Positions 897 to 14,690 of a stretch of 64,000 nucleotides of DNA are shown here, in pieces. The DNA comes from Saccharopolyspora aridisoli (GTDB lineage: Bacteria; Actinomycetota; Actinomycetes; Mycobacteriales; Pseudonocardiaceae): positions 1 through 64,000 of the forward strand of contig NZ_SMKV01000009.1 in NCBI RefSeq assembly GCF_004348445.1, given 5' to 3'. The first letter of the stretch is position 1, and each line of letters opens with the position of its first letter. The notes under the pieces are model-generated. The model did no database searches, was not told the origin of the DNA, and saw nothing but the letters and a program-made list of their open reading frames with translations. The position numbers were made by a program, and so were the translations under genes.

Positions 897-2093
897 TCAA
901 TTGCCAACTTTCCCCGGCCCCTCGATGGGTACCACGAAGGCCAGGGCTTCGGCACTGGCTCGGGACTGCTGCCCCCGGCCGAAGTACACGTCTTGGGTCA
1001 TCGACACCCGCGAGTGGCCCAGCAGGTCGGCCACCTGGCGAGCGGTCAGGCCAGCTTCGTCCAGCAGGGTCGCGACCGTCTTGCGCAGCGTGTGGAAGGT
1101 CACCCACTCGTAGCCAGCGCGGCTCCGGAACGGCGCCCACGTCCGGTTGTAGACGTTCGACGCGTTGAGGTACCCACCCTTCGTGTTGACGAAGATCGGA
1201 TTACCAGGATCAACCTCACCCAGTTGCTCGGCACGTTCCCGGAGCATGTTCACCGCCCAATCGGGGAGCGCGATGTCTCGCGCCGATCCGTCCGTCTTCC
1301 CATCGTTGCGCAGCGCACCCTTGCCGCGTGCACGGATCAGGTTGCCGCTCATCCGCAGCTTCTTGGACTCCGGATCGAAGTCCTCCCAGTGAGCACCCAG
1401 AGCCTCACCCGCTCGTTCGCCCGTCGCGATGAAGAAGCGCACGAGGTCAGGCAGGTCCTGCTTCTTCGCCTTCTCATCCTGGTCAAGGATCTTGAGCAGG
1501 TCGCTCAGTTCGTCCTTGGTCAAAGCCCGCGGCTTCTTCCGCTTAATCTTGGCTCTCCGCTCGGACAGGGCAGCGATGCCCTTCGTTGGGTTGGTCTCGA
1601 CAGCCCCAGCCTGAATCGCAAAGATCATGACGTTGCTGATCACCGCTTTGACGAGCTTCGCCAGAGTCAGGCTGTTGCCCTTGAGCTTCGACTGACAGAG
1701 CTTGTTGACCACCGGTGTCTTCACCTCGTACAGGCGCAGCTCACCGAGACTCGGCTTGACGTGGTTCTCGTAGACGTTCTCGTACGTGTCCAACGAAGTC
1801 AGCGAGTATGTGCCGTTCTCGGCGTCCTTCCTGAACTGGTCGAACCAGGCATTAGCAGCATCCGCGAACAGCGATGTGGCCGTGAGGTCGATACCGTCAG
1901 ACACCGGCACCAGGTCTTTGATCGCATCCCGGACAGCCTGCCGAGCCAGCTCCTTGGTCCGGCCGCGGCGACGCACGTCGGCATAAGTCCCGTCCTCACG
2001 CCGGTACCAGGCCCTTGCCGACCAGGACTTCCCGACCTGCTTGACCGAGACCTCCCCCATCGTTCCCAGCGGGAGCGGCAAACGACCCGCCAC
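897..2093 (-). CDS. int: Tyrosine site-specific integrase
   Basis: Catalyses integration and, with Xis, excision of the element at the tRNA-Lys site. The 398-aa protein has an N-terminal arm-binding/SAM-like region (about 1-185) and a C-terminal catalytic domain with Arg227 in TGERAGE, the HTLR box (His334, Arg337), His360 in LLGHS and the nucleophile Tyr370 in DVYF. GTG 2093 follows the xis stop by one base, implying translational coupling; ATG 2060 is an alternative start. The stop at 897 lies 56 bp from the attL core, the classic int-att arrangement. Confidence 0.95.
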   Translation of the reverse strand: MAGRLPLPLGTMGEVSVKQVGKSWSARAWYRREDGTYADVRRRGRTKELARQAVRDAIKDLVPVSDGIDLTATSLFADAANAWFDQFRKDAENGTYSLTSLDTYENVYENHVKPSLGELRLYEVKTPVVNKLCQSKLKGNSLTLAKLVKAVISNVMIFAIQAGAVETNPTKGIAALSERRAKIKRKKPRALTKDELSDLLKILDQDEKAKKQDLPDLVRFFIATGERAGEALGAHWEDFDPESKKLRMSGNLIRARGKGALRNDGKTDGSARDIALPDWAVNMLRERAEQLGEVDPGNPIFVNTKGGYLNASNVYNRTWAPFRSRAGYEWVTFHTLRKTVATLLDEAGLTARQVADLLGHSRVSMTQDVYFGRGQQSRASAEALAFVVPIEGPGKVGN

Positions 2094-2276: not shown

Positions 2277-3803
2277 TCAGTCCTTCCTTTCGATGCTTTG
2301 GCGGTGTTTGCGTGCCTCGCGTTGCCGTTCGGCGATCGCCGCGGCGAGTTCGCGTTCTTCAGGGGTGCGGTGACCGACACTGACCAGCGACCAGTCGTTG
2401 ATGACGGTGATCGAGTCGTCGGTGACCCCGAGCTCGTCGAGTACTTCCTCGTGCCGGTACTGGCGGCGGTCGTCGCGGATCTGCCGGAACGGCACGGAGT
2501 AGTACTGCGACTTGGTGAGGAAGTGGCCTCGGAAGGCGAGCATGTGCGCCCAGTGCCGGGGTTTGAGTGCGTCCAGCGGGTCCGGCTTGTCGCCCTGCTC
2601 GGGGTGGAGCCGGTGCCACAGCACGGTGCGGGTGACTTCGCCGCCGTTGTTGCAGGTCGTGCAGTACTGGGCGTGCTCACAGCCGCAGCCCTCAGGGGCG
2701 TGGAAGCCCTCGGAGTGGCAGTCCGGGCACGGGACCGGGGCAACGAGGTCCCAGGCGGTCTGGATGATCCGCCGGTGGTGCTCGGTGACGCGGAGGCGGT
2801 CGATGTCGGCTTGGGTGCGGATGCGCCGGTCGACGGCTTCGCTCTTGCCGGTGCCCTTGGTGGCGTATTTGGCCACATAGGACGCAAGGCGATCGTCAGT
2901 GATCACGCCCTGGTCGTCTTCGACCTGTCCGGCGTCGGCGGGCCGGATGGGGCGGATGTCGATCTGCTTTCCGAACGCCAGCTCCCACGTGCGGCCGTCA
3001 ACCTTGGGCGAGGTGAGCATTGTGTTGGCGTGGGCGAGGCGGATGGCGTCGGTGAGCACATCGGAGGTGGCCCACCTCGGGGTCGCATCGCCCGCACCAT
3101 TAGGCCCGTCCAGGCGCAGGACGGCGTGGAAGTGGATCACGCCGCGTCGCTGGAACTCGGCGACCTTGGCGAACGACAGGCGAGCGTGTTCGGCGAACAG
3201 GCGCTGCGGGAGCCCGGCGGCTTGGGCGAGGTAGCGCTTGAGGTAGGTGGTGAAGCGGTGCCACAGGTCCCCGGCGTGGGCCTGCCACAAGACGTGGCCG
3301 GTGTAGTCGTAGCCCTCGGGGTCGAGGGGCTGTCCGATGCGGGGGTCGTCGGGGTGGTGGTACTCGCCGCAGCGGCACGGGATGGCCTTGCCGTGCGGTG
3401 CCCGGCGGTTGTGGACCGGCCCGAACGACGGGGCGGTCAGCGTCAGGAACAGGCGGGGCTTGTCCGCGACCGAGGCCGGAATGCCCTTGGTGTCGCCGGT
3501 GAGTCCGGCTTTGAGGAGGTGGAAGGCGTCGGCGGCGTAGCGATCCGAGCAGGCCACGCACACCGATTCACGGCGGTTACCGCACGGGACGGACACGTGT
3601 CCGGAACGGGAACCGAGAACCTGTCCGCTGGCGGTGTCCTGGATGGCCCACTGTCCGGACAGGCGGATCGGGTGAGTGCAGCCGCCGGTCATAGCGGCCT
3701 CGGTGCGCCACTGCTGAAAACCTGCGGCGCGGGCGCGGCGTTGGAAGCCGTCAGCGACCAGCGCACGGTAATCGTCGGCGGTCATGAACGTAGTCGGTGA
3801 CAT
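2277..3803 (-). CDS. RepSA-type replication initiator
   Basis: Likely starts rolling-circle replication of the excised circle. The 508-aa protein carries a Cys-rich segment (C74, C82, C85), initiator motif I (FLTLTAPSFG, about 119-128), the HUH metal motif (GVIHFHAVLRLDG, His224 and His226) and a YVAKYATKGT segment matching the tyrosine motif. Further CxxC/H zinc clusters lie near the C-terminus. ATG 3803 is chosen because AGGAGG sits 5 nt upstream; a GTG at 3839 also opens the frame. Rep, xis and int follow each other with gaps of one or two bases. Confidence 0.92.
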   Translation of the reverse strand: MSPTTFMTADDYRALVADGFQRRARAAGFQQWRTEAAMTGGCTHPIRLSGQWAIQDTASGQVLGSRSGHVSVPCGNRRESVCVACSDRYAADAFHLLKAGLTGDTKGIPASVADKPRLFLTLTAPSFGPVHNRRAPHGKAIPCRCGEYHHPDDPRIGQPLDPEGYDYTGHVLWQAHAGDLWHRFTTYLKRYLAQAAGLPQRLFAEHARLSFAKVAEFQRRGVIHFHAVLRLDGPNGAGDATPRWATSDVLTDAIRLAHANTMLTSPKVDGRTWELAFGKQIDIRPIRPADAGQVEDDQGVITDDRLASYVAKYATKGTGKSEAVDRRIRTQADIDRLRVTEHHRRIIQTAWDLVAPVPCPDCHSEGFHAPEGCGCEHAQYCTTCNNGGEVTRTVLWHRLHPEQGDKPDPLDALKPRHWAHMLAFRGHFLTKSQYYSVPFRQIRDDRRQYRHEEVLDELGVTDDSITVINDWSLVSVGHRTPEERELAAAIAERQREARKHRQSIERKD

Positions 3804-3903
3804 CTCCACCTCCTGACAAGGTGAGAGGCGGGACACCACCTGACCGATCTGCCCGGTGGTGTCCCGCCGAGCGATCGGTGCTTTTCAGTTGTGCGGCAAC
3901 GGC

Positions 3904-4764
3904 TTACGCGAGGGCGTGTCCGTTGGTGGTGCTGTAGCTGGCCGCGATCTGTTCCGCCTTGTCGGCTGGGACCTTGATTACGGCGTGAACGTCATCAGCG
4001 GTGAACTCCCGGCCTTTATCCCGGGCACGGGTATAAGCGGCCTGAACGGCCTTGACCATCGGGGGCGGAAGTTTCGGGCCCCTGCTGACGGCCTTCGGAA
4101 TCTCGGTGGTCGGCGTGGCCGTCACGGGCGGTGCCGGTGGCGCGGGTGGGGTGGCCAGACTCGGTTCGGGAGCCGCTGCGGGTGCCGATGCCGTTTCCGG
4201 TGCCGCGGTCTCCGCTGGGGTGGCTTGCCCGATGAGCTGGTGGACAGGCACGGCGGTGATCTGGGCGCGGAACGCGGCGGTGGTGCCGGTGCGGTCGACC
4301 AGCCAGCGCAGGACCAGCAGGACCGGGCGGAGCCGGAACTTGGTGCGGCCGGTGCGGGCTTCGTAGTCGGCCCGCATTTCCAGCAGGACGATGTCGAAGA
4401 CCGCGACCGCCGCGACCGGCAGCCCTGCGGCCACGAGGCGGGTTTCGAGGGTGGGTTGGTGGATCCAGTTGATCCACGAGCTCACCGCGGTGAATCCCCA
4501 CATCAGCAGCCGTGCCCGGAGGGCGGAGCGGCCGTGGATGGAGGCCCGGTAGGTCATCAGGGTGCAGGCGAACGCGGCCCCGTCGAAGGTGGCCGGCACG
4601 AGCCACGCGGTCCAGTAGCTGAAGCCGGTCATGGAGGTCATGCCGTATTCGTGCAGTCCGACGAAGCTCGCAGCCCAGCCCATCACCGCAGCCAGCGCCA
4701 CCAAACCGAGCGCGACACCCGAGAGCCACGCATGCGCTTTGCTCTGGGGCGTGTCCTGGTCCAT
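3904..4764 (-). CDS. DUF2637 membrane protein (spread-associated)
   Basis: A 286-aa protein with an N-terminal bundle of four probable membrane helices (ALGLVALAAVMGWAASFVG; WTAWLVPATFDGAAFACTL; LMWGFTAVSSWINWI; AAGLPVAAVAVFDIVLL), then a Pro/Ala/Thr-rich linker and a basic C-terminal segment. DUF2637 proteins are regular AICE components and are suspected to aid intra-mycelial spread, but the biochemical role is unknown. ATG 4764 has AAGGGG 8 nt upstream. A truncated paralogue lies at 12726-12833. Confidence 0.85.
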   Translation of the reverse strand: MDQDTPQSKAHAWLSGVALGLVALAAVMGWAASFVGLHEYGMTSMTGFSYWTAWLVPATFDGAAFACTLMTYRASIHGRSALRARLLMWGFTAVSSWINWIHQPTLETRLVAAGLPVAAVAVFDIVLLEMRADYEARTGRTKFRLRPVLLVLRWLVDRTGTTAAFRAQITAVPVHQLIGQATPAETAAPETASAPAAAPEPSLATPPAPPAPPVTATPTTEIPKAVSRGPKLPPPMVKAVQAAYTRARDKGREFTADDVHAVIKVPADKAEQIAASYSTTNGHALA

Positions 4765-4776
4765 CGCAATCACCCC

Positions 4777-5232: not shown

Positions 5233-6621
5233 TCAGGCGGCCTCTTCGTCTTCGTCGCGGTTGAACGGGACGACGTTGGGGGTGTCTTCGGTGGGTGCCG
5301 GGCAGGTGCGCACGAGTTCCTCGATGTCGTCGTCGGTGACGTTTCCGGCGCGCACTCGGATTGGCTTGCGGGTGTACTGGTCGACGCGGAAGCCGATCCC
5401 GGCGTGGTCTTCGTCGGCGGGGATCTCGTCGGTGAGGGCGCCCTTGACGCGCATGCCGTCGCCGAGGGTCATGTCGGCGTGGTTTTCGGCGGTGGTGCGC
5501 AGGCAGATCCGGCGGGTGAACAGGTCGCGGACCGGGAGGATGTCCTTGGTCGGTTCCTGCAAGTACGCGCAGACCGCGAAGCCGGAGGCGCGTCCTTGGG
5601 TCATGATCTCGGCCAGCAGCTTCACAGCGGCACGGGTGACGCTGGAGCTGCCGAGGGCGGTCATCATGGCCAGCTCGTCGATCATCAGCACCCGCATTGG
5701 CGTCTCGGTGCTGACGCGGACCTTGCGCAACTTCTCGTCCTTGAGGAAGCGCTGCGTGGTCTTCATGTCGTTGCGGAAGGCCTCGATGACCTGCAGGGCC
5801 TTGTCCGGGTCGTCGGCGTACTTGTTGAACAGCGGTCGGGCGTTGCCCGCTTCCATGCCGCCCTTGAGGTCGCACATGTCGACCCGCACCAGGCCGTCGC
5901 GGATCGCCGGGCCCATCGCTCGAAGCGGGTTCCACATCAGCGTGCTCTTGCCCGCTCCAGCAGCGCCGACACCGAGGAGGTGGTTGCCGAGGATGGGCTC
6001 GGTCCAGTCGTTGCCGTACTCGTCCTCGCCGAAGTACAGCGCGGACAGATCGACGTCGGAGGAGTCCGCGGGAATCTCGGCGGGGTCGATGAACTGCTCG
6101 AACGGGTTGCCCCGCACGACGGTCAAGGCGATGAGGCCGGGTTTGACCTTCACGATGCCCAGGGCGTCGGCTCGCAGTGCCATCGAGAGCTCGTCGGCGG
6201 CGTCCTGGAACTTCTTCAGCGACTGGCCCCGCAGGACCTTCACATACAGCGTGTCGATCGACGGGGAAGCTGAGCGGACGCGGACCAGGCGGGGGACCTC
6301 GATGTGGCCGGTGCGGCGGTTCTCCCGGCCGAACTCGCAATCGATCATTAGCCCACGCCAGCGGCGGCCGACGTAGCGCAGCCATCTGCGGCGGAACGAG
6401 CGCAGCACGGGGGCGCCGAAGCGGTCGAAGGTCTCGGGGTGTCCGCGATACCACGACAGCCCAGCCGCCCCTACTCCGGCCAGGGCGGTTCCGGTGGTGA
6501 CCGGTCCGAGCTCGACCACGCTGGCGGCCAGTGCGGCGGGTGTGCCGGTCATGCCGGGGTGGCGGGCCATCCAGGCAGCCGCGCGAAACTCGATGCCCTT
6601 GCGTCGGTTCACCAAAGCCAT
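5233..6621 (-). CDS. tra: FtsK/SpoIIIE-like conjugative DNA translocase (TraSA/TraB type)
   Basis: The single protein that moves double-stranded plasmid DNA between mycelia in this element class. The 462-aa protein has an N-terminal hydrophobic segment (about 28-60), a Walker A loop (GVGAAGAGKST), a Walker B strand (VLMIDELAMM) and a downstream RRICLRT segment as in other Tra ATPases. An acidic tail (DEDEEAA) ends the protein. AAGGAGT precedes ATG 6621. A terminator hairpin lies directly upstream (6645-6690), suggesting controlled read-through. Confidence 0.9.
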   Translation of the reverse strand: MALVNRRKGIEFRAAAWMARHPGMTGTPAALAASVVELGPVTTGTALAGVGAAGLSWYRGHPETFDRFGAPVLRSFRRRWLRYVGRRWRGLMIDCEFGRENRRTGHIEVPRLVRVRSASPSIDTLYVKVLRGQSLKKFQDAADELSMALRADALGIVKVKPGLIALTVVRGNPFEQFIDPAEIPADSSDVDLSALYFGEDEYGNDWTEPILGNHLLGVGAAGAGKSTLMWNPLRAMGPAIRDGLVRVDMCDLKGGMEAGNARPLFNKYADDPDKALQVIEAFRNDMKTTQRFLKDEKLRKVRVSTETPMRVLMIDELAMMTALGSSSVTRAAVKLLAEIMTQGRASGFAVCAYLQEPTKDILPVRDLFTRRICLRTTAENHADMTLGDGMRVKGALTDEIPADEDHAGIGFRVDQYTRKPIRVRAGNVTDDDIEELVRTCPAPTEDTPNVVPFNRDEDEEAA

Positions 6622-8233: not shown

Positions 8234-8593
8234 TCAGGCGGCGGCCGGGATCTGGGCGTTGGCCGGGGCGAGGCCGCCTGCCTTGAACGACAAGCCCGAG
8301 CCGTTGTCGTTCTCCCAGTGGCTGACCGTCGCGTCGATCAGCTGGACGTAGACGCCCTCCTCGAAGCCCTCACCGGGGTCGGCGGTCAAGGTCACCTTGA
8401 TCTCCTCGCCCTTGCCCGCGAACTCGCCCGGCTGAACTCGACGCTTCGCGAACAGCGACACCACGAACTGTTGCACGCCCTCGCGGTCCTTCACGAACTC
8501 CTGCACGCCGTCCTTCTCTCGGGTCTTCTCCTGCGGTGCCTCGGTGATCATCAGCTTGTAGCCCTGCATGTTGACCGGGATGTTCCTAAGCAT
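8234..8593 (-). CDS. SCO3933-family-like AICE regulatory protein (119 aa)
   Basis: Starts MLRNIPVNMQGYKLMITEAP and continues with acidic and basic repeats (EKTREKDGVQEFVKDREG), then a beta-rich half with an EIKVTLTADPGEGFEEGVYV segment. The start and the 'predicted value' layout resemble SCO3933-family proteins of Streptomyces elements, annotated as regulatory on slender evidence. ATG 8593 follows GGAGG. It is first in the minus-strand operon and diverges from the HTH gene across the operator region. Confidence 0.65.
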   Translation of the reverse strand: MLRNIPVNMQGYKLMITEAPQEKTREKDGVQEFVKDREGVQQFVVSLFAKRRVQPGEFAGKGEEIKVTLTADPGEGFEEGVYVQLIDATVSHWENDNGSGLSFKAGGLAPANAQIPAAA

Positions 8594-8621: not shown

Positions 8622-8725
8622 GTGTTTACCCCTCTAAACACCTGCGGCGCGATCTGTTGTTGAGGGGGTCTAAACAACAAGGTAGGGCGTTGGCCCTCGG
8701 CTGTCAAGGGGTCTAAACTCCGGGT
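8622..8725. promoter_or_regulatory. Divergent promoter with triple CTAAAC operator
   Basis: The 132-bp gap between divergent starts contains the dyad GTGTTTAcccctcTAAACAC (8622-8641) and two direct copies of GGGGTCTAAAC (8665-8675 and 8708-8718). The last copy contains TAAACT (8714-8719), placed 6 nt before GTG 8726 as a leaderless -10 box. Binding there would block transcription of the HTH gene; the other copies can serve the SCO3933-like operon. The regulator is probably encoded in the element. Confidence 0.65.
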
Positions 8726-9553
8726 GTGACCACCAAGGACGAGTTCGAAGCCGTGCGGAGGGAGACTGACCCCATCCGCCGAGGTCAGCGCGCCACAGAT
8801 CTCATCACGATCTATCAGCAGCGTGCTACGGAGCTCGCCCGGCTGCGCAAGGCAGCGATCGAAGAGGCCCACCGTGAGCTGGGGATGAGCTACACGGAGA
8901 TTGCAGCGGGTCTCGGCATCACCAAGGGCCGTGTCACACAGATCAAGCAGTCGGCTGCGGCTGCTCAGCGCGCCTTCTTCGGTGTGGGGCCAGTGAGCAT
9001 CGGTATTCCGTACCGGTACCAGGTCACCGACCGCGAACGCCCGCTCATTGCCGCCGAGGACGCGGAGACGGGGGAGCAGCTGGAATCGCTGCTGGCCGCA
9101 CTGTCATTCACGGTCGATCGATACCAGATCGGTCCGGAAACCGAAGCCGCGCCGGAAGGCGACGGTGTCGTGGTCTGCGGCCCGAAGTCCGCCCCAATCG
9201 GTGCCGAACTCCTTGATGAAGACCCCGTCGCGACGCTTATCAAGGACGGCGGTCGGTGGTGGTTCGAACACCGCGATTCAGGGGAGCGGTTCGGCTCGCC
9301 TGCAGATGACGAGACGCCGCAGCACGCAGACCTCGGGTACTTCGCGCGTCATCGTTATGACGGTCGGGTCGTCGTGCACATCGCCGGCATCCACGCTATC
9401 GGGTCGCTTGGAGTCGCTCACTACCTCACGGGCAACCTCGCCGACCTCTACCGCCGGGTCGGCGACGTGTCCTTCAGCGGAGCTGTGCGCGCAGCCTACG
9501 ACGGCCTCACCATCACCAAGAGCGAACTCGTAGGAGGCCCTTATGCCTGGTGA
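8726..9553 (+). CDS. HTH DNA-binding protein with C-terminal sensor-like domain
   Basis: A 275-aa protein. Residues about 30-78 form a sigma-region-4-like HTH (MSYTEIAAGLGITKGRVTQI). After a linker comes a globular domain with VVVCGPKSAP (about 150), a RWWFEHRDSGERFGSPADD strand-turn and VVVHIAGIHAIGSLG (about 222-236). I remember similar C-terminal domains after HTHs in other actinobacteria, but cannot name a ligand. The start is leaderless GTG. Its end overlaps the PP2C start by 11 bases, so the two are translated together and probably function as a pair. Confidence 0.7.
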   Translation: MTTKDEFEAVRRETDPIRRGQRATDLITIYQQRATELARLRKAAIEEAHRELGMSYTEIAAGLGITKGRVTQIKQSAAAAQRAFFGVGPVSIGIPYRYQVTDRERPLIAAEDAETGEQLESLLAALSFTVDRYQIGPETEAAPEGDGVVVCGPKSAPIGAELLDEDPVATLIKDGGRWWFEHRDSGERFGSPADDETPQHADLGYFARHRYDGRVVVHIAGIHAIGSLGVAHYLTGNLADLYRRVGDVSFSGAVRAAYDGLTITKSELVGGPYAW

Positions 9554-10349
9554 GGTCGCATCTGTAGCGACCGCCCAACTTCCTGGTTCCGAGAACAGCG
9601 ACGACAAGATCTTCGTGACCAGGAATGCCGTCCTCGTCCTAGACGGAGCATCTGCGTTCATACCGGTTCCGGTCTCGGCGAGCAGGTATGCGGCGACCCT
9701 GGGCAGCCGCCTCAGCCGTTCCCTGGAGGAAGCCCCCGAGGCAGACCTCTCCAATCATCTGGCGGTCGCGATCGAAGAGGCGGCAGCGGAACTGAACCTG
9801 AGTGCTGGGGAATCTCCATCAAGCACGGTGGCCATCGTTCGTCAGCGCGGTGATCTGGTCGACACGCTCGTGCTCGGTGACAGCGCGATCGTGCTTCCGA
9901 GCGGAATTGTCACCGATGGGCGGATCGACGCCCTGAACCTGGAGGAGCGGAGCCGGTACCAAGAGCGATTGGCCCAAGGGACTGGCTACGACGAAGATCA
10001 CACGCAGCTGTTGCGTGAACTCCAGGATCAACAGGCGAAGCATCGAAACCAGTCCGGGGGATACTGGATCGCCGAAGCCGACCCCGCCGCAGCAGCGCAC
10101 GCTCTCACTGCGACTCACCCGGTCCAGTCGACGCCCTGGGCGATTCTCCTGACCGACGGTGCTCTAAACACGGCGCGTCATACTGGCCTCGACAACTGGC
10201 CGGACCTAGCGGCAGCCGGTCAGTCCGCGCTGCTGGCATTGCTTGATCGCCTGCACGAATGGGAAGAGACCGATGATCCGGACGGGAAGCTCTTTCCGCG
10301 CTCTAAGCGGCATGACGACAAGGCCATCGCTACTGTCCGCTTCAGGTAA
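9543..10349 (+). CDS. PP2C-family protein phosphatase
   Basis: A 268-aa stand-alone phosphatase domain without membrane or sensor additions. Metal-site motifs are present in order: LVLDGAS (Asp34), LGDSAIVL (112-119), ILLTDGAL (Asp205) and KRHDDKAIATVRF (Asp258, Asp259). Mn/Mg-dependent dephosphorylation of Ser/Thr phosphoproteins is the family activity. The overlap with the HTH gene suggests the phosphatase acts on the regulator or its pathway. No kinase gene lies inside the element; a broken one lies just outside attR. Confidence 0.8.
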   Translation: MPGEVASVATAQLPGSENSDDKIFVTRNAVLVLDGASAFIPVPVSASRYAATLGSRLSRSLEEAPEADLSNHLAVAIEEAAAELNLSAGESPSSTVAIVRQRGDLVDTLVLGDSAIVLPSGIVTDGRIDALNLEERSRYQERLAQGTGYDEDHTQLLRELQDQQAKHRNQSGGYWIAEADPAAAAHALTATHPVQSTPWAILLTDGALNTARHTGLDNWPDLAAAGQSALLALLDRLHEWEETDDPDGKLFPRSKRHDDKAIATVRFR

Positions 10350-10377
10350 GCCCCCGGCCAGTACGCCCCACGACCGC

Positions 10378-10515
10378 ATGCTGGCACTGAACCCCGACGC
10401 AGTCGTCGACCGGATCGAGGACCCGACCCCAGATCTTGATTTTGATGCACTGCGTGTGATCCGTCAGGTGATCTGCGACATCGGTCTGCCACCTGATTTG
10501 CGTCACTCGGCCTAG
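10378..10515 (+). CDS. Small acidic protein (45 aa), uncertain
   Basis: ATG 10378 opens MLALNPDAVVDRIEDPTPDL, then DFDALRVIRQVICDIGLPPD. Coding-like composition and position 28 bp after the PP2C stop suggest a third gene of the cargo unit, but no good Shine-Dalgarno is visible. The 16-bp stretch ATTTTGATGCACTGCG inside it recurs at 13290-13305. Confidence 0.4.
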   Translation: MLALNPDAVVDRIEDPTPDLDFDALRVIRQVICDIGLPPDLRHSA

Positions 10516-11255: not shown

Positions 11256-11624
11256 TTATGTTCTTCGGATCGGCAGAACGCGGGTCCGTGCCGCGGCTTG
11301 CGGGAGGTACCTGGTTGCTTCGCCACGTTGCGCCTCGGCGGGTTTTGCGGCAGGCAGAACGCGGGTCCGTGCCGCGGCTTGCGGGAGGTACCTGGTTGCT
11401 TCGCCACGTTGCGCCTCGGCGGGTTTTGCGGCAGGCAGGGCGCCTTGAGATCGAAGCGATCGCGGAACCCGTTGGTGAGGGATGCGCAGCCTGTTTGTGT
11501 CTGGATCCGCGAAGCGGCGGGCGGGGGCGTCGGGGTCCTCGGTAGGCCACTGGGATACGGCAGAGGCCGCCGTCGTGATCTGCCCCAAGGGCGCAACAAA
11601 GCGCGTCATCTCGTAGTAGCTCAT
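11256..11624 (-). CDS. Doubtful ORF with duplicated 27-aa unit
   Basis: ATG 11624 with GGAGA upstream opens MSYYEMTRFVAPLGQ and runs 122 aa. Residues about 64-117 are two identical 27-aa units (ALPAAKPAEAQRGEATRY...) because an 81-bp DNA unit is duplicated in frame. A second minus frame is also open across the repeat, so the repeat itself may be non-coding DNA inserted into a former gene. Confidence 0.3.
   Translation of the reverse strand: MSYYEMTRFVAPLGQITTAASAVSQWPTEDPDAPARRFADPDTNRLRIPHQRVPRSLRSQGALPAAKPAEAQRGEATRYLPQAAARTRVLPAAKPAEAQRGEATRYLPQAAARTRVLPIRRT
11272..11438. repeat. Perfect tandem duplication of 81 bp
   Basis: Unit 1 is 11272-11352 and unit 2 is 11353-11433, identical throughout and beginning GGCAGAACGCGGGTCC; a 5-bp third start (GGCAG) follows. 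The period is 27 codons, so it stays in frame in any reading frame. Absence of mismatches implies a recent event or active homogenisation. Confidence 0.95.
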
Positions 11625-11735: not shown

Positions 11736-12152
11736 TCAGAAGTCGAACACCACACCTGTTTCCACGCGCAAGGCACACATGTTGGAATACGTCTCTTCGA
11801 ACCGGATTTCGGATCCACGCCAGGTGCCTGTAGCGCTGACCATAACGGGGGCGTACTGCAGCGTGCACGCACGGGGTTCTTCTGCCTGCAACGATGTGAA
11901 AGATCCACCGACTTGGTCGAGTTGAGCACAGGCTTTCACCGTGTGTTTGTGGTTGCCGCCCGTCGGGTGGCAGCGCAACACGACCATGCGGTTCACGCCC
12001 GAACCGTCGCTGGAAACAGAAAGCCTAACGGTACTTGCGACACTGTTCTTCGGTGCGGCCGACGTCTCCGTAGCGACCGCGGCAGGCGCCAGCATCGCAC
12101 CGATCAGCGCGGCGCCAACAATCAAAGCGCGACGCATCGATTTAGCAAACAT
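11736..12152 (-). CDS. Secreted SSI-family (subtilisin inhibitor-like) protein
   Basis: A 138-aa preprotein. The signal peptide (MRRALIVGAALIGAMLAPAA, cleaved near ATETSA) is followed by an SSI domain with VVLRCHPTGG, the reactive loop CTLQYAPV and the terminal GVVFDF. Four cysteines (61, 75, 96, 126) sit at the two expected disulfides. By alignment with CPMVYDPV of Streptomyces SSI, P1 is Leu98 and P1' Gln99, predicting inhibition of subtilisin/chymotrypsin-like proteases. ATG 12152 has GGAGG 8 nt upstream. It lies inside the AICE with its own terminator; its upstream DNA is duplicated at 12376. Confidence 0.88.
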   Translation of the reverse strand: MFAKSMRRALIVGAALIGAMLAPAAVATETSAAPKNSVASTVRLSVSSDGSGVNRMVVLRCHPTGGNHKHTVKACAQLDQVGGSFTSLQAEEPRACTLQYAPVMVSATGTWRGSEIRFEETYSNMCALRVETGVVFDF

Positions 12153-12186
12153 TCGTCTTCCTCCAGGGAAGGGAAGAGCCACAACT

Positions 12187-12475
12187 TTAAGGACAAGGGG
12201 TTCAGATGTCGATCAACTGTTGCCGAAGCGTTGCGCAAGCAGTTTTCGTGCCGGGTTACTCATTGTGCAACCTCTGAGTTTGCGCCAGTGGTGACGCAGA
12301 GGTAGCGCGCGAGTCCACGCCCACGGCCAATGCGGGCGGGGACGTTCTCTACGAACGCGCGCAACGCTATCTCCCTTAAGGACAAGGGGTTCAGATGTCG
12401 ATCAACTGTTGCCGAAGCGTTGCGCAAGCAGTTTTCGTGCCGGGTTACTCATTGTGCAACCTCTGAGTTCGCGCC
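12187..12475. repeat. 94-bp direct repeat upstream of SSI gene (two copies)
   Basis: 12187-12280 and 12376-12469 are identical (start TTAAGGACAAGGGGTTCAGA), and similarity continues through five further bases after one mismatch. The copies are offset by 189 bp. The inner copy lies 35 bp before the SSI start and likely includes its promoter or 5' region, so the outer copy is a duplicated control region without a gene. Confidence 0.93.
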
Positions 12476-12725: not shown

Positions 12726-12833
12726 GGCCTCGGCCTATGGGCGCTGGGGATGGCGGCGCTGGCGGCGGTGATGGGCTGGGCCGCGAGCTTCCTCGGGGTG
12801 CACGAATACGGCATGACCTCCATGACCAAGTGA
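12726..12833 (+). pseudogene. Truncated DUF2637 (Spd-like) gene fragment
   Basis: The plus strand encodes GLGLWALGMAALAAVMGWAA and then SFLGVHEYGMTSMTK before TGA. This is near-identical to helix 1 and the following loop of the intact DUF2637 protein at 3904-4764 (VALAAVMGWAASFVGLHEYG). Everything after TSMT is missing. It sits in opposite orientation to the intact copy, pointing to a remnant of a second AICE rather than simple duplication. Confidence 0.85.
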
Positions 12834-14208: not shown

Positions 14209-14246
14209 AATCCGCGGGTTCAGGGTTCGATCCCCTGGCGGCCCAC
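14209..14246 (+). repeat. attR core repeat (38 bp)
   Basis: Identical to 804-841 and contains only the 3' part of tRNA-Lys; the bases 5' of it (ATGGATCGGC) do not match a tRNA. It marks the right end of the element. Confidence 0.93.
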
Positions 14247-14250
14247 AAGA

Positions 14251-14278
14251 AACCCCAGGTCACACGGCCTGGGGTTTT
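14251..14278 (+). terminator. Original tRNA-Lys terminator (right copy)
   Basis: AACCCCAGG/CCTGGGGTT with an 8-nt loop and TTTT. The loop differs slightly from the copy at 846-870, so the tRNA-proximal copy came with the element and this one is the ancestral host copy. Confidence 0.75.
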
Positions 14279-14690
14279 ACATTTTCCGTGTCTTCACGGG
14301 AGCGGGAGCCCTCCACGGCGGTGTGGAGGGTGGCGCCGAGGGAGTGCAGGGCCGAGCCCGGGTCCGGGTCGTCGCCTCGGGCGATCTCGGGGGCGAGGTA
14401 GGCCGGGATACCTGACAGGATTCCGGTTCTAGCATCGTCGGCAGCGTGCGAGATCCCGAAAATCGGTGATCTTCGCTGTGCCGTCGTCACCGAGCAGCAC
14501 GTTGGCTGGTTCGATGTCGCGGTGCACGATGCTGACCTGGTGCTGCAACCGCGACGGGGCGTTGCAGGTGTTCGTCAGTGGCCACCTGCCGTTCACGACG
14601 GTGGCTGGCCAGCAGCGTGCCGATCCCGCTCACTCGTCGTCCTTCGTGCTCGACTGCGCCCCGATCCACACCCACTGCGGCTGGTTGCGG
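14260..14690 (-). pseudogene. Broken Ser/Thr protein kinase (Hanks type)
   Basis: The minus strand encodes a catalytic loop [20 protein letters not shown] followed by TDF. An extra T near 14459-14463 then shifts the frame, after which [20 protein letters not shown] and LAPEIARGDDPDPGSALHSL continue in the next frame to a stop at 14260. HRDxxPAN, DFG and APE motifs identify the family. The Gly-rich loop and catalytic Lys are not recognisable upstream, and the C-lobe ends inside the tRNA terminator region. Confidence 0.8.

Follow-up and report, generated by a model that had tools for sequence, protein, structure and literature searches.

Two described systems come closest to the locus analysed here. 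In the conjugative element ICEBs1, the genes of ImmR and ImmA have a transcription direction opposite to that of the transfer genes, and six binding sites of ImmR are distributed over the control regions of the two promoters, according to two reports (PMC8960796, PMC10233336); the protease ImmA inactivates ImmR, as the former states (PMC8960796). In pSAM2, an actinomycete integrative and conjugative element (AICE), KorSA represses replication and transfer, according to an AICE survey (PMC3218068). This survey mentions Pra, KorSA, XRE and NUDIX proteins, and its main text never uses the word phosphatase; the switches described in the available portions of the survey and of a conjugation review are repressors and proteases, with no phosphatase among them (PMC3218068, PMC6540685). 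The present analysis concerns two adjacent genes, A and B, of an AICE of Saccharopolyspora aridisoli (Pseudonocardiaceae), located in the first 64,000 nucleotides of contig NZ_SMKV01000009.1 (assembly GCF_004348445.1); this whole stretch is called the window. The recurrence of the pair, together with a repeated DNA site of its own, suggests an undescribed on/off switch for transfer, which may listen to host kinases. No description of the pair was found in the literature searched, most subscription papers and all bioRxiv preprints not being covered, in agreement with an earlier note made from the window alone, which knew of no described function.

The locus shares its layout with ImmR/ImmA: a helix-turn-helix (HTH) gene is followed by the gene of an enzyme partner, both are divergent from the transfer genes, and operator sites lie between. 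ICEBs1 and its relatives, including TnSmu1, likewise encode an HTH repressor and an enzyme together, but their enzyme is a metalloprotease cutting the repressor, whereas B belongs to the PP2C phosphatases. By analogy, A/B may work like ImmR/ImmA without being a member of that class, B not being an ImmA/IrrE-type metalloprotease. The element is of the same kind as pSAM2 (KorSA/Pra/Pif), with RepSA, an FtsK-type transfer protein and a tyrosine integrase. KorSA is a GntR protein, whereas A has no GntR or UTRA match in Pfam or NCBIfam.

According to the explanation preferred here, which is probable on balance, A and B would form a control switch of the conjugative element. A would bind a GTTTA...TAAAC inverted repeat, present in two to three copies in the region that separates its gene from the divergent transfer operon. 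With the outer copies on or near the two promoters, A would repress both operons, its own and that for transfer. B, co-translated with A, would be an active PP2C-type Ser/Thr phosphatase whose substrate is either A or a partner protein of A. A Hanks-type kinase of the host would phosphorylate A and change how tightly it holds the operator; B would return A to its earlier state. The scheme would resemble that of ICEBs1, with dephosphorylation replacing proteolysis. That A is phosphorylated, and that it is the substrate of B, are put forward as hypotheses only.

Gene pair and operator

A and B lie on the plus strand, facing minus-strand genes, and overlap by 11 nt. The earlier note had described two such overlapping genes under their own operator, and both points hold. 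The right end that it gave to the unit (10515) is corrected to 10349, because the open reading frame (ORF) 10243-10515, which starts with TTG, overlaps the end of B in another frame. The features of this region are as follows.

8234-8593, minus strand: first gene of the divergent operon, 119 amino acids, also in related AICEs, no Pfam family
8624-8639: operator site 1, GTTTA-N6-TAAAC, 10 of 10 positions, ahead of the divergent gene 8234-8593
8659-8675: operator site 2, GTTGA-N7-TAAAC, 9 of 10 positions
8703-8718: operator site 3, GTCAA-N6-TAAAC, 8 of 10 positions, overlapping the probable -10 box of A
8714-8719, plus strand: probable -10 box TAAACT, with the GTG start of A 6 nt downstream
8726-9553, plus strand: gene A, HTH regulator, 275 amino acids, GTG start
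9543-10349, plus strand: gene B, putative stand-alone PP2C/PPM Ser/Thr phosphatase, 268 amino acids, ATG start

Three inverted repeats with half-sites GTTTA/TAAAC are present between 8594 and 8725, which is above chance relative to shuffled sequences, and the repeat is conserved among relatives. When at least nine of ten matches and a spacer of 5-8 were required in the 250 nt before the profile match of A, at least one site was found in 87 of 132 loci with full-length A (160 sites in all), compared with 0.9 sites in first-order Markov shuffles and one in all A genes together. In 51 long loci, 57 sites fell in the 13.3 kb before A versus seven in the remaining 834 kb. In the genome that contains the window, the operator form with a spacer of 6 and at most one mismatch occurs at three places and is perfect only at A; a reversed control pattern gave four matches per strand, and isolated copies with a mismatch are therefore meaningless. 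Provided that the GTTTA operator is read by A, A is a local regulator.

The TAAACT pattern fits 59 of the 132 loci, and in 43 of these an in-frame start codon follows 4-8 nt further on; in the remaining 16 loci the search hit an NTG in another frame before the start codon, which also happened in the window, where the actual GTG start follows after 6 nt. Judging from this geometry, which is shared with relatives, the mRNA of A is likely leaderless, with its -10 box beneath the operator. Site 1 is situated roughly 30 nt upstream of the start codon of the divergent gene and probably covers the divergent promoter. A terminator scan gave two terminator-like sites versus 1.2 expected.

Regulator A

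A contains both motifs quoted in the earlier note, including VVVCGPKSAP, and no family was found above the Pfam or NCBIfam cut-off, the best match being Sigma70_r4 (18.8 bits versus 24.1). Weak HTH matches cover about residues 37-77; a PHROGs search returned HTH families for A and nothing for B, and the better matches of A in a PDB sequence search were restricted to the HTH part. The remainder (about residues 79-275) is an unnamed alpha/beta domain. The note had asked whether this domain belongs to a characterised regulator family, and none was matched. Its structural model resembles the N-terminal domain of GH67/GH84/GH115 glycosidases, a BcsB domain and an S-layer anchor domain, with 8-15% identity among the matches listed, whereas in A the domain is fused to an HTH; the sensor role given to this protein in the earlier note is putative. 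The fold in question is usually named hexosaminidase domain-2-like, zincin-like.

The Sigma70_r4 similarity and a 'sigma-70 family' annotation on plasmids are the grounds for regarding A as an activator or sigma-like factor. This is very improbable: the match spans 25 residues and is below the cut-off, no other sigma region is present, and operator site 3 overlaps the probable -10 box, the usual position of a repressor. As A does not contain sigma regions 2 and 4, its identity as a sigma factor was rejected.

Residue 66, directly before the recognition helix, is a serine or threonine in 128 of 128 A proteins, and S191 is S in 108 of 110 proteins accompanied by B versus 11 of 18 without it; these two residues are candidate phosphosites. 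Where the start of the recognition helix reads KGR, the GTTTA operator is present in 78 of 84 loci (9 of 48 for other A proteins), and with R at this place a CAA-[GC]-TTG repeat is found in 13 of 33 (2 of 99 for the others). This suggests, but does not prove, that A reads the operator.

Phosphatase B

B exceeds the cut-off of Pfam PP2C_2 (PF13672; 26.6 bits versus 24) and has the PPM fold, which is generic. It contains D21, D34-G35, D113, D205-G206 and D258-D259, positions that are invariant in 41 aligned relatives; in the larger set the metal aspartates D34, D113, D205 and D258 are kept in 111 of 111 proteins and D21 in 110 of 111, with one gap. By sequence B is a stand-alone, metal-complete PP2C/PPM Ser/Thr phosphatase, as the earlier note had it, and would probably be enzymatically active. 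Its identity to the PPM/PP2C phosphatases tPphA, MsPP and PstP is 12-19%, and it differs from them in adjoining an HTH gene on mobile elements; a PDB sequence search with B gave just two meaningless rows. No HATPase kinase or STAS antagonist, as in RsbU/RsbW/RsbV, was found among those AICE proteins that were run on Pfam, which did not include every ORF.

A C-terminal UTRA domain is attached to B in two of the 41 aligned members. These PP2C-UTRA proteins are encoded on two plasmids (L077, 6839-8167; L084, 6839-8170), in each case followed by the gene of an ATP-binding protein; the L077 proteins were run on Pfam, with AAA_33 in the ATP-binding protein, and those of L084 are known from annotation only. 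A UTRA-bearing B with an ATP-binding neighbour would fit a ligand-regulated phosphatase.

Distribution and co-inheritance

Within the family of the window, 97 of 390 genomes contain A, whole or partial (E <=1e-8); none of the 20 other members of the genus listed in that search has it. The corresponding counts, partial matches included, are 35 of 298 for the order (E <=1e-3) and 11 of 396 for the phylum. A is also present in 24 plasmid records, 17 of them from Streptomyces and including Streptomyces linear plasmids. Phage records gave no match, and of three A sub-alignments searched against viral contigs two gave none and one gave six loci.

For the comparison of loci, matches of A below about 246 bits in the family genomes were left out. 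From 188 sequences 46 were dropped, 42 of them being shorter copies of loci that were kept, and 142 loci resulted. The dropped sequences with no longer copy were L029 (partial A, has B), L031 and L033 (HTH fragments) and L104 (full-length A, with downstream sequence too short to judge B). Ten of the 142 were not counted as full-length A, including broken or partial A in L037, L062, L063, L181 and L187; of the 132 others, 128 had at least 1200 nt downstream, with 126 different A sequences.

B is located within 200 nt of A in 110 of these 128 loci. The similar pairs that the earlier note mentioned in other actinobacteria are thus confirmed far beyond the AICE of the window, and the possibility raised there that the pair does not recur outside this element did not come true. 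Distances between A proteins parallel those between the B proteins (Pearson 0.906 over 111 loci; the best of 999 permutations reached 0.08). Among 21 of the 24 plasmid records (H4, H9 and H10 were left out), B is present in 19, and the gene preceding A is divergent in all 20 annotated records examined. A WhiB-family gene is annotated nearby on the divergent strand in eight of these 20.

Points against the switch and a separate target of B

Several observations weigh against the proposed switch. In 18 of 128 loci A occurs without an intact B, with at least eight changes on the tree, so A can act alone. These loci include a five-member clade, two AICEs with a NAD-dependent epimerase in the slot of B (L054 and L056; Pfam was run on L054) and L146, where a 26-bit remnant of B was scored as absence. 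In L056 the epimerase is followed by a glycosyltransferase-like ORF, as judged by eye. In the five-member clade (L057, L058, L059, L060, L071) a TatB-like LGPERLP motif occurs a few hundred bases upstream of A, in a gene that A closely follows; the clade looks like a domesticated chromosomal version of A. Some pairs occupy apparently chromosomal sites (L044 and L050, from translated ORFs judged by eye), and the pair is therefore not confined to conjugative elements.

The operator and the phosphosites have weak points of their own. The GTTTA operator is absent in 45 of 132 loci, and the promoter scan found no consensus promoter. The CAA-[GC]-TTG repeat was picked after the sequences had been inspected. 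With relatedness controlled, the link between helix and operator is unsupported (five and nine independent pairs, median p 1 and 0.5), the KGR pairs being even, with the operator changing in the same direction in 0.9 and in the opposite direction in 1.0 of the pairs. An S or T at residue 66 may merely cap the helix, which explains its conservation equally well, and five of the seven losses of S191 in the absence of B belong to one clade. S251 was rejected as a B-specific phosphosite, since it is conserved without exception whether B is present or not. The presence of a kinase gene next to the pair was also rejected: a motif scan of 38 loci, the AICE of the window and 37 other neighbourhoods, found no kinase motif, although it would miss unusual kinases. 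The kinase must then be that of the host, or there is none; the genome containing the window has 13 Pkinase matches above the cut-off.

The main rival to A as the substrate is a separate target of B. A would still be the repressor of the element and would merely set the amount of B, which would act on another phosphoprotein of the host or element, for example in transfer, division or replication. We regard this as possible, though rather unlikely. The repeated loss of B described above, with A kept and the operator still present in L045, L047, L048, L152, L165 and L167, speaks for it, as do the generic PPM fold and the two epimerase AICEs, in which A evidently needs no B. Against it, B adjoins A across very divergent elements with its metal residues kept, whereas a freely separable effector would be expected elsewhere too; B apart from A was not searched for across genomes.

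Defence context

The earlier note had offered a signalling switch or a phosphorylation-based conflict module. The signalling switch is the better supported of the two, and the conflict module found no backing in a PADLOC match or in a kinase motif near the pair. As a conflict module, B would undo a kinase-based host defence, or the pair would be an addiction or exclusion system. Mobile carriage and the presence of kinases in the host are consistent with this, and a precedent among AICEs for an immunity enzyme exists in the NUDIX protein Pif of pSAM2, according to the survey (PMC3218068). Yet neither A nor B had a PADLOC match at E up to 10, by which a known defence system was rejected, the pair is located at what is probably the promoter controlling the transfer operon and not among variable cargo, and it also occurs at the apparently chromosomal sites mentioned above. 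Such a role is very improbable.

Other content of the element

The element spans 13.4 kb between two 70-nt att repeats that are 87% identical. With a tyrosine integrase, RepSA, an FtsK-type transfer protein and att repeats at a tRNA gene, it is by its gene content an AICE, predicted to excise and transfer. Besides the genes listed above it contains the following features.

804-873: left att repeat, beginning inside the 3' part of tRNA-Lys
897-2093, minus strand: tyrosine integrase (Phage_integrase)
2277-3839, minus strand: RepSA-type replication initiator (PF20199, 468 bits)
3904-4773, minus strand: DUF2637 protein
5233-6621, minus strand: FtsK/SpoIIIE-type transfer protein (TraB-like)
11736-12182, minus strand: SSI-type (subtilisin-inhibitor-like) protease inhibitor gene, within the att borders
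14209-14278: right att repeat, 70 nt, 87% identity with the left

The minus strand also carries small genes, of which 8234-8593 is the nearest to A. The A/B pair had been called the only clear cargo, which does not stand: the SSI-type gene is also within the att borders and is a better candidate for true cargo, and the pair itself looks like a control module, its placement and operator being the grounds on which the cargo reading was rejected. The right part of the AICE contains a perfect 81-nt tandem duplication (11272-11433) and a 100-nt direct repeat (99%, 12187-12475). An 87-nt inverted repeat (90%) joins 4627-4713 with 12741-12827: a segment of the DUF2637 gene recurs in the right arm, likely as a remnant of a second copy. 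Just beyond the right att repeat is a Pkinase-like fragment of 28 positions (14459-14542, minus strand; 24 bits, below the cut-off), probably also a remnant.

Significance for actinobacterial elements

Repressor switches of mobile elements are a known kind; the novelty would lie in the type of enzyme that accompanies the repressor, a phosphatase occupying the place of the protease. More tentatively, and at a strength short of probable, the pairs may represent a widespread, undescribed class of switches on actinobacterial mobile elements, in which Hanks-type kinases of the host and a co-translated PP2C would set the hold of a repressor on the transfer promoter. The finding raises the testable question of whether Ser/Thr phosphorylation in the host gates conjugation. 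If so, conjugation would be coupled to the Ser/Thr phosphorylation state of the host, and with it to growth, cell wall and dormancy.
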